From Acetobacter oryzoeni (lineage in GTDB: Bacteria; Pseudomonadota; Alphaproteobacteria; Acetobacterales; Acetobacteraceae), in the NCBI RefSeq assembly GCF_004014775.2, contig NZ_CP042808.1, positions 2,657,501 to 2,721,500 on the forward strand: a DNA stretch of 64,000 nucleotides, written 5' to 3'. The notes under the pieces are model-generated. The model was given only the letters and a program-made list of their open reading frames with translations, had not been told where the DNA came from and did not search any database. This document shows positions 52,001-55,248 of the stretch, piece by piece; position 1 is the stretch's first letter; every line of letters begins with the position of its first letter. Both the position numbers and the translations under genes were made by a program.

Positions 52001-52110
52001 ACAATAATGCCTTCACCTATTGCTTCTACGTCATGGTTTGCAGCTTTGATCCAACGGAAAGCCAGTTGATCAAGAAAAGGAAGATGGGCGGGAATTGTTG
52101 CAAGTTTCAT
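49027..52110 (-). CDS. addB: Double-strand break repair protein AddB
   Basis: Partner of AddA; an inactivated helicase fold plus a nuclease domain. It has 1027 residues from ATG 52110, which overlaps the tsaE stop (ATGA); the longer frame to 52161 would invade tsaE. FDPTESQ-like repeats are absent. VLPGRRAARAL stands at the degenerate nucleotide site, and the C-terminal nuclease has VTEIETWVRDPYAIYAKHIL, GRADRIE and QDYKTG. It is the alphaproteobacterial form, coupled in order tsaE, addB, addA. Confidence 0.94.
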   Translation of the reverse strand: MKLATIPAHLPFLDQLAFRWIKAANHDVEAIGEGIIVLPGRRAARALTEAFLRHMDGQSVLLPRIVPIGALDEAELGLSAGMGGELALDLPPAVAGMTRLAVLARLVLQADKAFGTRPTLDQAWPLAKALAELMDEAEWSGVNLAARLPEAVQENFAEHWQIILRFLEIVTQAWPEWLKENGVMNPVARQVALLEAQADLWRKLAQQGDSTPIWAAGFTHVMQPTVKVLQAVLECPAGKVVLPGLDMMMAEETFVSLPDSHPQAGLSSLLKNLEITRNKVQVWEGAGSGSERASILARVLLPAEALGDWSCPGDVKLENVYRLDAADQQEEAVAISMIMREAIEKPAHRVALVTPDRVLAARVATELARWGVLADDSAGSSLVDTPAAVLLRLVAQMVDSKFSPVSLLSVLKHPLVACSFSSGVCRATARLLERAVLRGPAPPPGFAALCQVVENALNNPNERAKAKQERGITADRPFGPVALSVFMERLAFCLEPVLGWEHDAVEARAHGDLEQHCAPVPDLLAALIATVERLVATDEESASERLWRGEEGNMLASQLTELMLAAEVLPPQPPVVLDGLLTAVLAPERVAMRRGGDPKSLHPRVLIWGLFEARLQTAETVILGGLSEGVWPPVVDAGPWMSRPMRKKMGLPSPEHAIGQAAHDFFASAAAAGTVVLSSARRREGAPVVPARWLTRLNAFLAGRNGHIPNHPALFWLNKLDQPLGPATPVAPPQPVPPVSLRPRRLSVTEIETWVRDPYAIYAKHILRLEVFPELEEAADASDYGMIVHKALERWVKTYGVTWPENAEKKLCDLFRISLQEHVLRPALRAWWAPRLTRIAQWVVQAEEKRRSEYGTPRAILTEIRGQVSIMDAPAGRFDIVGRADRIELNAEGHVIVQDYKTGTLPSTKDVLAGWSPQLPLESAMILRGGFKEVPDHSREISNLIYWRLTGGAVPGEEVVVQARDALSLTDLAEQTWENLLLRIAAYDQPDQPYLSHPHPGREPRFADYARLARVPEWNAARKEDEE

Positions 52111-52577
52111 ACGTCTGTTCCAACGCCAGCAATATCTGCCTCTTTCAATCGATCTTCCCATCCGGCCAATCTGGCTTGGCGCTGTCCATCAGCAAGAACA
52201 CGTATTTCAAGCTTCAAAGCATCTTCGGGCAACAGATCTTCCAATTTTTGCGGCCATTCAACAAGCACTACGCCTTCTCGTGCTTCATCCCATCCGAGTT
52301 CTTCCAGTTCGTCAGGACCACCCAGACGCCATAAATCAAAATGCGATACAACGCAGGAAGGAGATTCGTAAGATTGCACTAAAGTGTAAGTTGGGCTCGG
52401 AACCTCCAAATGAGGGGCACGACAAAACGCACGCAAAAAGGCACGCGCAAAAAAGCTCTTTCCAGCCCCAAGCGGACCAGAAAGCAAAATGGCATCTCCT
52501 GCTTGCGCATACTCTGCCAGTTTTATGGCCAACCTTATTGTTGCGTCTTCGTCTCGCAGAATCATCTTTCTGGCCAT
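52107..52577 (-). CDS. tsaE: tRNA threonylcarbamoyladenosine biosynthesis ATPase TsaE
   Basis: ATPase needed, with TsaB and TsaD, for t6A37 of ANN-reading tRNAs. It has 156 residues from ATG 52577, with GGAG 9 bases upstream; the frame extends to ATG 52592, where AAGG touches the codon. The P-loop GPLGAGKS (34-41), SPTYTLVQSYES and HFDLWRLGGPDELEELGWDE are the family marks. It leads a tightly overlapping tsaE-addB-addA run. Confidence 0.95.
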   Translation of the reverse strand: MARKMILRDEDATIRLAIKLAEYAQAGDAILLSGPLGAGKSFFARAFLRAFCRAPHLEVPSPTYTLVQSYESPSCVVSHFDLWRLGGPDELEELGWDEAREGVVLVEWPQKLEDLLPEDALKLEIRVLADGQRQARLAGWEDRLKEADIAGVGTDV

Positions 52578-52592
52578 TTTAGCTTTCTCCAT

Positions 52593-52954
52593 CCTTCAGC
52601 CCAGCGCTTTGCCTTCAATCACAAAAGAAGAGGTGTGCGTTGTATCCATCCCGAGTTCACAAAGAAGTGTATTCATCACAAACCAAACAAACTTTCTCTA
52701 GATTTGATTGTTAATGAAGAATTTTTCCAAAAAATTAACAATAAAACCTAACGTTTTTTATCAATTTCTTAATCTTCACTTAATTATTATATATCTATAG
52801 ATATGCGCTTACCGCATAATTGGCTTGCACAAAAAAGAAGCTCTCAACGAAATAATGTTTGTTTCTTTTTGAAACACGTATAGGTTTAGTAATAACAAGA
52901 AAATGCAACCACAGGATGCATTTCTGATTCTCTGAACCATAATGAGGTTCCACC
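52593..52954. other. AT-rich intergenic region upstream of the CtrA-like gene
   Basis: A 362-base gap between divergent tsaE and the response-regulator gene, clearly AT-rich from about 52.68 to 52.87 kb. No convincing coding frame. It holds a perfect CtrA box (52769-52783) and a weaker candidate at 52711-52725 (TTAA-N7-TTTT). Promoters for both flanking genes should lie here. Confidence 0.6.
52769..52783. promoter_or_regulatory. CtrA binding box
   Basis: TTAATCTTCACTTAA is an exact match to the TTAA-N7-TTAA CtrA consensus. It lies 172 bases upstream of ATG 52955 of the CtrA-like regulator gene, so autoregulation or control by a canonical CtrA is plausible. Confidence 0.7.
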
Positions 52955-53737
52955 ATGCGTATTTTACTTTTAGAAAATAATTTTACCTCCAGTCAGGCAA
53001 TATTTTCGGCATTAACAAAAACCACTTTTTCAGTGGACATGGTTCAGTGTGATCAGGAAGTTGTAGAGCTACTCAGAAATTATGATTATGGTCTTGTCAT
53101 TCTTCATCTACAACATCCCGATATTTATGGGTATGACATCCTTACCACATTACGATCTTTAAAACTCACAACACCTGTTATTATCATCTCACCCGTCAAC
53201 ACTTCTGAGGTGAAAACTAGAGCTTTTGCTGCAGGCGCTGACGATTATTTAATAGACCCTTTTGATTCGACTGAACTTATAGCCCGCATACAAGCCATTT
53301 TACGGCGTGCCCATGGCTATGCCCATCCTATTGCACAAATTGGCGATCTTACAGTTAACCTCAACAGCCATACTGTAACGGTTAACAATCAGCCCATTCA
53401 TCTTACCGGAAAAGAATTCGCCATTCTTGAACTGCTTGTCTTGCGCAAAGGCATTGCCCAAACCAAGGAAACCTTCCTTAACCATCTTTATGGAGGGCGA
53501 GATGAGCCAGATATGAAGATTATAGATGTTTTTATCTGTAAACTTCGCAAAAAACTTCAGGCAGCAGGGGTAGGAAATCTGATTTCCACTGTATGGGGAA
53601 GAGGCTATATTCTAAATGATCCTCAAATCTCCAAAGCCTGTACACCCATGCCTGTTATGGGCAAACCCCACAAACAATCACAATCAATATCTAGCTTACA
53701 TGAATCCCATCAGCATGTTGCTGGAAGCAGTGCCTAA
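52955..53737 (+). CDS. CtrA-like response regulator with a degenerate receiver domain
   Basis: OmpR-type regulator of 260 residues. The DNA-binding half (about 125-220) keeps CtrA-specific stretches: HLTGKEFAILELL, LNHLYGGRDEPDMKIID and VFICKLRKKL with TVWGRGYIL. In the receiver (1-120) the phosphorylation residues are changed relative to Caulobacter CtrA as I remember it: Asp8-Asp9 are Asn-Asn, Asp51 is His and Lys101 is Asp. It should not be phosphorylated normally. The C-terminal 40 residues are Ser/His-rich and not CtrA-like. ATG 52955 has GAGG 7 bases upstream. It could be the sole CtrA or a paralogue. Confidence 0.86.
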   Translation: MRILLLENNFTSSQAIFSALTKTTFSVDMVQCDQEVVELLRNYDYGLVILHLQHPDIYGYDILTTLRSLKLTTPVIIISPVNTSEVKTRAFAAGADDYLIDPFDSTELIARIQAILRRAHGYAHPIAQIGDLTVNLNSHTVTVNNQPIHLTGKEFAILELLVLRKGIAQTKETFLNHLYGGRDEPDMKIIDVFICKLRKKLQAAGVGNLISTVWGRGYILNDPQISKACTPMPVMGKPHKQSQSISSLHESHQHVAGSSA

Positions 53738-53852
53738 ATTATGAAATCAACCCTAGATTATGATACATTTTTCAAATTCAAGAGCACAGAAATTTTTAGA
53801 TTGTAAAGTGGCGTGTAAATAGCTCGGCACTGCCAAAATCTCGCAAAGGAAA

Positions 53853-53900
53853 AATCTAGAGAAAAGAATTTTCAAAACCCCTTTCTCTAGATTAGATTTT
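53853..53900. terminator. Bidirectional terminator between the CtrA-like gene and glmM
   Basis: AATCTAGAGAAA at 53853-53864 pairs perfectly with TTTCTCTAGATT at 53882-53893. On the plus strand AGATTTT follows. It separates convergent genes ending at 53737 and 53899. Confidence 0.75.
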
Positions 53901-55248
53901 AGGCAGGAACACGCACCTGCTCAAGTACATCACACATCTGGTCAACAACCTCGTCAACCAGTTGCGCATCTTCCGCTTCTGCCATAACGCGCACCAAAGG
54001 TTCCGTACCACTTTTACGCAACACCAAACGCCCTCGGCCAGCAAGCTTACGCTCTACATCAGCCTGACGGGTTTTTACTTCGTCCATATCAAGTGGACAG
54101 GCCCCCTTGTATCGAACGTTTTTCAACTTTTGGGGAAATGGCTGAAATAGCCGGCAAACTTCACTCGCTGGACGACCATCCTGAACAAGTACGGCCAGTA
54201 TCTGCAAAGCAGCAATCAGCCCATCACCTGTCGTTGCAAAATCTGTCAGCACCATGTGCCCAGATTGTTCACCACCAATATTGGCCTGCCGTTCCAACAT
54301 ACGCTCGACAACGTAGCGATCACCCACTGCCGTGCGTTCCAGACTCAACCCCTGATTTTCCAGAAACCGTTCCAGCCCCATATTGGACATAACGGTTGCG
54401 ACAACGGCATTACCGACCATGCGACCTTCTCGCGCCCAAGACTGGGCGATAAGAGCAAGAATCTGATCACCATCAATCAGACGGCCTGTTTCATCTGCAA
54501 TCAAAACGCGATCAGCATCGCCATCCAGAGCAATACCCAAATCGGCTTGATGTTTTACAACTGCGGCACAGAGAGCTTCAGGGTGAGTTGAACCACATTT
54601 TTCATTAATGTTTACGCCATTAGGTTCACACCCTATGCGGATGACTTCTGCCCCTAACTCCCACAATGCGGTTGGCGCAACCCGATAGGCAGAACCATTG
54701 GCACAATCAATCACAATCTTCATGCCATCCAGCCGCAATTTGCGCGGGAATGATGCTTTAGCACTTTCTATATACCGACCAGCAGCATCATTCAGCCGAG
54801 ATGCACGGCCAATATGTTCTGGCGTTGCCAGATATGCGGTAAGGTCTTTTTCCATCAGGGCTTCAATTTCCGTTTCATCCTGATCAGAAAGTTTAAAGCC
54901 ATCTGGGCCAAACAGCTTGATGCCATTATCCCCAAAAGGATTGTGAGAAGCGGAAATCATGACGCCCAGATCTGCTCTGAGAGAACGCGTCAGCATAGCA
55001 ATTGCAGGCGTTGGCAACGGGCCTACCAGCGTGACATCCATACCTGCTGAAAGAAAGCCCGCAACCATGGCGCTTTCGATCATATACCCAGAAAGCCGCG
55101 TATCTTTTCCTAACAGAACACTATGCCGATGATCTCCCCGCTTGAAATGCAACCCGGCGGCCTGCCCCAGTTTTTGGGCGACTTCCACTGTCATCGGTGC
55201 AACATTAGCGGTGCCACGAATACCGTCTGTTCCGAAAAAACGCTTCAT
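53899..55248 (-). CDS. glmM: Phosphoglucosamine mutase
   Basis: Converts glucosamine-6-phosphate to glucosamine-1-phosphate for UDP-GlcNAc, hence for peptidoglycan and LPS. It has 449 residues from ATG 55248; ATG 55257 is also in frame. The phosphoserine loop [15 protein letters not shown] has catalytic Ser101, the metal loop is DGDADRVL, and the C-terminal [11 protein letters not shown] binds phosphate. It is a single gene opposing the CtrA-like gene; folP is upstream on the same strand. Confidence 0.96.

Follow-up and report, generated by a model that had tools for sequence, protein, structure and literature searches.

Introduction

CtrA is the textbook phosphorylation-switched regulator of the alphaproteobacteria, and the C-terminal -AA of the Caulobacter protein is a protease tag. 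Caulobacter CtrA becomes stable once its last three residues are replaced, and an S-phase delay requires that proteolysis and dephosphorylation both be disrupted (PMC12186491); expression of the stable active allele ctrA(D51E)Delta3Omega arrests Caulobacter in G1 (PMC5189948). Tomasch et al. (2021; PMC8116508) reported ctrA, gcrA and ccrM in 72–82% of Rhodospirillales genomes and chpT, cckA and divL in only 27–36%, with the caution that divergence may hide the latter three; the main text of that paper holds no word starting with Acetobacter.

A receiver without any one of five conserved residues (DD, D, T, K) is termed a pseudo-receiver, such proteins make up ~6% of a representative bacterial receiver set, and unphosphorylated dimers have been reported for the pseudo-receiver regulators ChxR, GlnR and HP1043 (PMC12632262). 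We found no report of a pseudo-receiver CtrA orthologue in the openly licensed PMC literature; the main texts of PMC12632262 and of PMC4395418, on Asp-less receivers, contain neither 'CtrA' nor 'Acetobacter', and that of the metaproteomics paper PMC13214618 is without 'CtrA'.

Here we describe the ctrA gene of Acetobacter oryzoeni, found in a stretch of 64,000 nucleotides that we refer to as the window (Table 1). The window CtrA resembles the CckA–ChpT-switched CtrA of Caulobacter, Brucella and the Rhodobacterales in its best family model, domain order and DNA-binding domain; within Acetobacter its gene neighbourhood is common to a D51-bearing CtrA. It differs in being without the phosphosite, one metal ligand, the lysine and the C-terminal -AA, and in belonging to a genome in which ChpT was not found and no close CckA was found. 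Beside these lost residues, and relay proteins that were not found, stand a conserved predicted fold and dimer face, and purifying selection.

We consider it probable (roughly 0.6) that this CtrA no longer uses Asp phosphorylation and is a DNA-binding regulator able to dimerise, independent of phosphorylation and controlled through its level or a partner. The CckA–ChpT relay would have been lost in an ancestor and the phosphosite would have drifted afterwards, to E51 in many relatives and, within a single clade of Acetobacter, to H, Y, T, S or N. The receiver would survive under selection as a dimerisation and scaffold module, the protein would bind DNA as a dimer without phosphate, and its output would be set by the amount made or degraded, or by a partner protein. 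A practical corollary is that 'CtrA' in an Acetobacter annotation should not be read as CckA–ChpT output.

Identity of the gene and its locus

The best NCBIfam model for the window protein is that of CtrA (NF045991), at 297 bits against 151 for the next model and an equivalog cut-off of 350, with residues 1–223 aligned to positions 1–224 of the 224 in the model. Pfam recognises the receiver (PF00072, 64 bits) over residues 3–113 and the DNA-binding domain (PF00486, 73 bits) over residues 146–220; with a receiver, an OmpR-type winged helix and CtrA as its top-scoring model, the protein belongs to the CtrA family. For the gap-free alignment to Caulobacter CtrA given in the first-pass annotation, the comparison covered the CtrA model only. 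Seven residues, D191, V192, F193, C195, K196, L197 and R198, are invariant across 56 sequences, and we take D191–R198 to be the CtrA DNA-recognition stretch.

The source genome (3.15 Mb, four contigs, completeness score 100%) contains no other match closer than 33% identity, which makes the window protein the only CtrA found there. It had been proposed at first that the protein, given a normal ctrA in the same genome, might compete with it for CtrA boxes. In 14 of 49 Acetobacter genomes a second CtrA-like gene, more distantly related, does occur, but not in this one, and competition with a normal CtrA elsewhere in the genome is contradicted by the 33% match unless the assembly lacks a replicon; we give it next to no credence. 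The word 'dominant', also used at first, makes little sense because ctrA is single-copy, whereas a 'constitutive' or 'ligand-gated' protein is plausible. Rather than competing with a second CtrA, the window CtrA stands at one end of a lineage-wide change.

Relatives of the protein include one in A. ascendens (86%) and a locus in A. pomorum (74%). The gene order is PDDEXK-nuclease protein (presumably AddB-like), TsaE, ctrA, phosphoglucomutase-family protein (presumably GlmM), pterin-binding enzyme (FolP) and FtsH. This neighbourhood is common to A. pomorum and to A. malorum, whose CtrA has D51 and K101; in all three, ctrA has the PDDEXK-nuclease protein, TsaE and the phosphoglucomutase-family protein as its neighbours. 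The window and A. malorum ctrA are the same gene with different active-site chemistry, and we take the window gene to be the orthologous, single-copy CtrA of this Acetobacter. No RNA element matched at gathering score near ctrA (52100–54000). A CtrA 49% identical to the window's also occurs in a MAG labelled Candidatus Kaiserbacteria (L013:2630-3310), where it is likely to be mis-binned alphaproteobacterial DNA.

Table 1. Features of the ctrA locus, in coordinates of the window.
Feature	Position	Strand	Detail or basis
ctrA	52955..53737	+	260-aa ORF; only CtrA found in the genome; best NCBIfam model NF045991
Receiver domain, residues 1–118	52955..53308	+	PF00072; predicted (beta-alpha)5 fold intact; AlphaFold2 and Foldseek
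E7-N8-N9	52973..52981	+	E7 GAA 52973–52975; N8 AAT 52976–52978; N9 AAT 52979–52981
H51, replaces the phosphorylated Asp	53105..53107	+	codon CAT
S79, retained Thr/Ser active-site residue	53189..53191	+	codon TCA
alpha4-beta5-alpha5 face (K87, F91, D96, D97, E107, A110, R111, A114, R118 and others)	53213..53308	+	conserved; per-site counts
D101, replaces the conserved Lys	53255..53257	+	codon GAC
Winged-helix DNA-binding domain, residues 126–222, with DEPDMKIIDVFICKLRKKL	53330..53620	+	PF00486; invariant columns
C-terminal tail ending SSA, not -AA	53621..53734	+	tail comparison across CtrA rows
TTAATCTTCACTTAA, perfect TTAA-N7-TTAA	52769..52783	+	172–186 bases upstream of ctrA; not supported as a conserved CtrA box

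An altered active site

In an alignment with an OmpR-family receiver (1kgs) the acidic metal pair falls on residues 7–8 of the window CtrA, and by the PhoB/OmpR numbering and residue roles, which we assume to carry over, the pair is E7–D8 of CtrA. Thus E7 is kept, D8 is lost (D8N) and residue 9 only flanks the site. The first-pass annotation had described an Asp8–Asp9 metal site changed to Asn-Asn: the two asparagines are there, but its numbering is one off. Position 9 is variable even among ChpT-bearing relatives (entropy 0.46, against 0 at positions 7, 8, 51, 79 and 101). Its central observation, a CtrA-like regulator without the usual phosphosite, is borne out on exactly the reading frame listed in Table 1, with N8, N9, H51 and D101 all in place, and Asp51 and Lys101 were not restored when the receivers were aligned.

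Three catalytic residues of the receiver have therefore been lost, one of the metal ligands through D8N, the phosphosite through D51H and the lysine through K101D, and E7 and S79 have been kept. Without these three residues the usual Asp phosphorylation is impossible in this protein. A phosphorelay calls for D51 together with E7–D8 and K101, a set that the window CtrA does not have, and with D8, D51 and K101 missing it is a pseudo-receiver. Sequencing error behind H51 and D101 can be ruled out because the same or equivalent changes are found in other species, in the proteins P0003–P0007 and in the genomes G169, G223, G225 and G228 as well as A. pomorum.

The main alternative to a phosphorylation-independent dimer is that the receiver is a sensor, its emptied H51/D101 pocket, in which the charges of D51/K101 are reversed, being gated by a ligand, a partner or cytoplasmic pH. 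Such an explanation would account for purifying selection on a receiver that cannot take phosphate at Asp, ligand-gated pseudo-receivers are known (JadR1, RedZ and ShkA; PMC12632262), and H51/D101 could in principle form a pH-sensitive pair. It also fits the pairing of residues in the 164 rows compared (173 rows after six named loci and three gapped rows were set aside, with paralogues in the set and H counted as positive): D or E51 goes with K or R101 in 128, a positive residue at 51 (H or R) goes with D or E101 in eight, and the two positions are never both acidic or both basic. However, sister species have T51/E101, S51/Q101 or N51/E101, so that no pocket chemistry is conserved across the clade, and we regard a sensor as unlikely.

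The variation at position 51 also bears on whether another modification (Ser/Thr/His phosphorylation or acetylation) substitutes for Asp phosphorylation. GlnR has been reported to be modified in this way (PMC12632262), and S79 is retained in the window CtrA; close relatives, on the other hand, vary at position 51 between H, Y, T, S and N, so that no one residue has taken over from Asp as acceptor, and we find such a substitution improbable.

Search for the CckA–ChpT relay

Matches to ChpT (PF10090) were found in 126 of 200 Acetobacteraceae genomes at E <= 0.001 (121 over the cut-off) and in none of 49 Acetobacter genomes, with the Caulobacter control positive. A family-specific profile, made from seven ChpT proteins of the same family and searched against 60 genomes, gave 142–226 bits in all 13 held-out ChpT-bearing positive-control genomes and recovered two that Pfam had missed (G164, 183 bits; G109, 164 bits), but it gave at most 45 bits in 29 Acetobacter genomes, i.e. 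no ChpT was found in them. The best Acetobacter matches listed for this profile lie in frames of 745–875 aa, and in the eight Acetobacter genomes compared the best match is the kinase L093 or an L093 orthologue. In the window's own genome the ChpT that a phosphorelay needs was found neither by Pfam nor by the family profile.

The NCBIfam CckA model proved unsuitable as a presence test (at E <= 1e-60 it finds matches in 177 of 200 genomes, all of them below the cut-off), and a family CckA query was adopted for that reason. With a query from a ChpT-bearing relative there was no own-genome match at E <= 1e-75, six of 24 candidates having been scored. Nine CckAs of ChpT-bearing relatives are 44–72% identical among themselves (at least 344 bits), whereas six own-genome kinases are at most 37% identical to those nine (at most 224 bits). 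The searches suggested with the first-pass annotation have thus given one CtrA in the genome, no ChpT in any of the 49 Acetobacter genomes and, within the scope just given, no close relative of CckA, a strongly diverged CckA being possible. With CckA called present at E <= 1e-87 for the family query, a threshold picked by eye after the list had been viewed, the receiver is intact in 45 of 45 CckA-positive and 12 of 67 CckA-negative genomes.

L093 itself, a 758-aa hybrid kinase, was considered as a CckA orthologue and rejected: it is at most 36% identical to the nine CckAs, and its matches are 59–100% identical in the eight Acetobacter genomes searched and at most 44% elsewhere.

Hybrid kinases are still encoded in the window's genome, and the A. 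malorum clade has all five catalytic residues with ChpT not detected, both of which would fit an undetected or unrelated phosphotransfer route signalling through a weak site. The window CtrA, however, has lost its acceptor Asp and its Lys as well as metal ligand D8, and we hold such a route to be very improbable. Two adjacent kinases of this genome (L085:226-2295 and L091:31-1911; C1, ~976–978 kb) each have an N-terminal receiver; in L085 this receiver gives a match to NosR-family model NF053512 and lies ahead of PAS, kinase and another receiver.

Receiver state and ChpT across the Acetobacteraceae

We tabulated one CtrA per genome for 157 genomes (45 Acetobacter and 112 others, the 112 being no random draw). 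E7, D8, D51, S79 and K101 are all kept in 51 of 51 ChpT-bearing genomes, with zero variation in each column, and at least one of the five is lost in 93 of 106 ChpT-less genomes. The idea first put forward that this lineage has rewired its regulator is supported, and the change is wider than proposed, with ChpT found in none of the Acetobacter genomes and the active site altered in most ChpT-less relatives.

Relay loss need not destroy the phosphosite, because all five residues survive in 13 of the 106 ChpT-less genomes, of which seven belong to the A. malorum clade and the others are G087, G039, G041, G013, G074 and G094. Among these six, G087, G039 and G074 have completeness of 84–87%, G087 and G074 have a CckA match, and the matches of G074 and G094, only 30–34% identical, may not be CtrA; G013, 99% complete, is a clear exception with no detected ChpT and all five residues kept. 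For Wolbachia, the text of PMC4426382 describes a CtrA that keeps its phospho-acceptor and reports no ChpT, so that ChpT loss alone does not explain the change.

The 157 genomes are 161 less four with gaps at a key column (G243, G062, G086 and G032). The 112 from outside Acetobacter go back to a selection from the 200-genome survey that took in all 61 non-Acetobacter ChpT-less genomes matching at E <= 1e-40, only 52 of the 113 genomes labelled ChpT-bearing, and G074 and G094. Two marginal ChpT hits (G009, E = 7.6e-4; G192, E = 3.6e-4) were recoded as absent and other marginal hits kept as labelled; G164 and G109 were recoded as ChpT-present after the family-profile search. 'Intact' refers to positions 7, 8, 51, 79 and 101, in place of an earlier definition by 8, 9, 51 and 101; the switch moves the malorum clade to intact and leaves the outcome of the kinship tree test unchanged. 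The start of G224 is out of frame, and the first residues of its CtrA are unreliable.

Of the 45 Acetobacter CtrAs, eight have D at position 51, 19 have E and 18 have some other residue; the variants H, Y, T, S and N fall within one clade of Acetobacter, and many relatives have E51. On a CtrA tree built without columns 8, 9, 51 and 101 (13 of 173 rows omitted as gapped, truncated, paralogous or from Rickettsia), 18 rows with T, H, S or N51 form one clade (SH-aLRT 96) that adjoins the malorum clade with its D51; the rows beyond are mostly E51 (G211 is D51), and at least 15 changes at position 51 are needed; the split of Acetobacter into two groups on this quick, long-branched tree may be an artefact. 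Corrected for kinship, the association of ChpT with receiver state comes down to three pairs on supported branches and seven on all branches. Of the three, the receiver goes the same way in 1.8 (mean), the opposite way in none and shows no difference in about 1.2 (sign test, median p 0.5), and the association rests on few independent events.

A group with no relay found and CtrA still under selection forms an evolutionary series that bears on the work of an unphosphorylated receiver, and on whether the replication role of CtrA can be lost with another role kept. The steps D51, E51 and T/S/N/H51 are found in related, partly syntenic genes, which makes the series testable in vinegar bacteria.

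Selection, fold and dimer face of the receiver

Receiver dN/dS (Nei–Gojobori, from pairs with dS > 0.02, to which 14 of the 15 pasteurianus-clade pairs belong; dS medians of 0.5–1.3 lie near saturation) has a median of 0.124 for the pasteurianus clade, 0.051 for the T51 clade and 0.161 for the S/N51 group, compared with 0.094 in 13 ChpT-bearing relatives, 0.058 in the malorum group and 0.049 in the aceti group. These values make it unlikely that the window ctrA is a decaying pseudogene. Some relaxation is possible in the pasteurianus clade, as its value exceeds those of the malorum and aceti groups.

Conservation is unevenly spread over the protein. Between 41 canonical CtrAs and 17 of the clade without D or E51, mean entropy rises from 0.16 to 1.14 at the active site (positions 8, 9, 51, 79, 98 and 101), falls from 0.17 to 0.05 on the alpha4-beta5-alpha5 face, stays near level in the rest of the receiver (0.79 and 0.76) and falls from 0.58 to 0.39 in the DNA-binding domain; on the dimer face it is 0.05–0.26 in every group compared. 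A relaxed kinase/HPt docking face (residues 10–21 and 102–106), which had been expected, was rejected as a general feature, with entropy of 1.27 in canonical CtrAs, 2.26 in 80 non-canonical rows and 0.66 in the clade without D or E51.

The alpha4-beta5-alpha5 face mediates dimerisation in the OmpR family. All the OmpR-type salt-bridge residues are present in the window CtrA, K87–E107, D96–R118 and D97–R111, in a pairing that we assume from ArcA. AlphaFold2 predicts a full receiver fold (pLDDT means of 84–94 in ten-residue blocks over residues 1–120), with a whole-protein pTM of 0.52 that leaves the domain arrangement uncertain. By Foldseek the receiver model matches 4qpj_C, listed as a CtrA chain, at a target-normalised TM of 0.90, and the model also matches DNA-bound OmpR-type regulators. 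Given that the dimerisation face is kept, the protein would most likely dimerise without phosphate and bind DNA in that form; with the phosphosite lost, the relay not found and the shape still selected, it is probably controlled in some other way.

One could argue instead that the receiver is a decaying remnant and that only the DNA-binding domain matters. The drift of the active site, the partial matches in G032, G062 and G086, the three of 49 Acetobacter genomes in which ctrA was not found, and a dN/dS in the pasteurianus clade that is higher in the receiver (0.124) than in the DNA-binding domain (0.078) would all agree with this. Yet receiver dN/dS is 0.05–0.16 in all six groups, on either side of the ChpT-bearing relatives, the dimer face is near-invariant and the AlphaFold2 model is well folded. 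The receiver is not decaying, and we think there is little chance that it is a mere remnant.

A dimer set by level or partner would resemble the atypical OmpR-type regulators HP1043, ChxR, GlnR and RitR, which have a receiver fold without the full set of phosphorylation residues. Foldseek matches of the window model include GlnR, RitR and 2hqr, which we take to be HP1043, and by analogy the window CtrA would be expected to dimerise without phosphate. It differs from these regulators in being a CtrA orthologue, which to our knowledge none of them is, and in that the passage from a phosphorylatable-looking receiver to one that is not can be followed in one syntenic gene.

The C-terminal tail and a possible second switch

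A final A is found in 45 of the 53 CtrA rows with a ChpT-bearing label, and a final AA in 31; for the 62 ChpT-less rows outside Acetobacter the counts are 31 and 13. Acetobacter itself is divided: all 15 aceti-type rows end in AA (14 with D8-D9-E51, and G234), and none of the 32 others does (G221 left out, the named A. pomorum and A. malorum loci included), the usual endings there being GD, GE or AD and that of the window SSA. By analogy with Caulobacter, -AA would act as a protease tag in Acetobacter too.

The Caulobacter allele ctrA(D51E)Delta3Omega has rough natural counterparts in the Acetobacter CtrAs of G203, G230 and G243, which join E51 with a tail other than -AA (AG or GE ends); the Acetobacter versions differ in being natural and single-copy, and the window has H51 with its SSA tail. 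A bolder reading is that Acetobacter CtrA has come off both Caulobacter switches, the relay and then, in one clade, -AA, leaving a selected protein that cannot take phosphate at Asp and that an altered pocket of the H51/D101 type either locks into dimerisation or holds ready for it. As a stable phosphomimetic allele arrests Caulobacter in G1, CtrA would on this account have been uncoupled from replication control. If true, this would be a natural, stepwise uncoupling of a master cell-cycle regulator with its intermediates D51, E51, T51 and H51 still living; we offer it tentatively, at somewhat worse than even odds.

CtrA boxes and dispensability

The standing of CtrA as a putative cell-cycle regulator in Acetobacter is assumed from its family, and its role there may be minor. 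TTAA-N7-TTAA is not enriched genome-wide, with 18 sites in the window's genome against 36 of a reversed control and 13 against 35 in G169; Acetobacter CtrA may use a different motif or have a small regulon. Four sister species have not retained the perfect box upstream of the window ctrA. Autoregulation by way of a box in the 350 bases upstream was rejected for Acetobacter, where a perfect box is found in seven of 48 rows (4.0% in shuffles), four of them being one identical malorum-group site, and a box with one mismatch in 19 of 48 rows against 46% in shuffles. With one mismatch allowed, the box occurs in 31 of 62 other ChpT-less rows (26% shuffled) and in 10 of 52 ChpT-bearing rows (5.6% shuffled), which suggests an upstream CtrA box outside Acetobacter and none inside.

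CtrA appears dispensable to some Acetobacter, as no ctrA match was found in three of 49 genomes (G117, G235 and G236) and that of G221 (L145) is broken by four in-frame stops. Two of the three genomes without a match are small (1.5–1.7 Mb). Partial CtrA matches begin at query residue 91 in G032 (L120), 65 in G062 (L112) and 103 in G086 (L116), and are possibly receiver-truncated CtrAs or frameshifts.

The second CtrA-like gene of Acetobacter is 33–39% identical to the window's; the four copies read (L146–L149, from G241, G219, G244 and G209) have Q51 with A or I101, and so no phosphosite. A further group of distant best matches (36–38%) comes from ChpT-less Acetobacteraceae (L117–L119 and L121–L124; G187, G068, G140, G023, G196, G153 and G096). 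Six of these have R51 with D, S or N101, three of them being R51/D101, and G023 has S51/G101; this group of seven may have lost the phosphosite independently, with swapped charge in the three R51/D101 cases.
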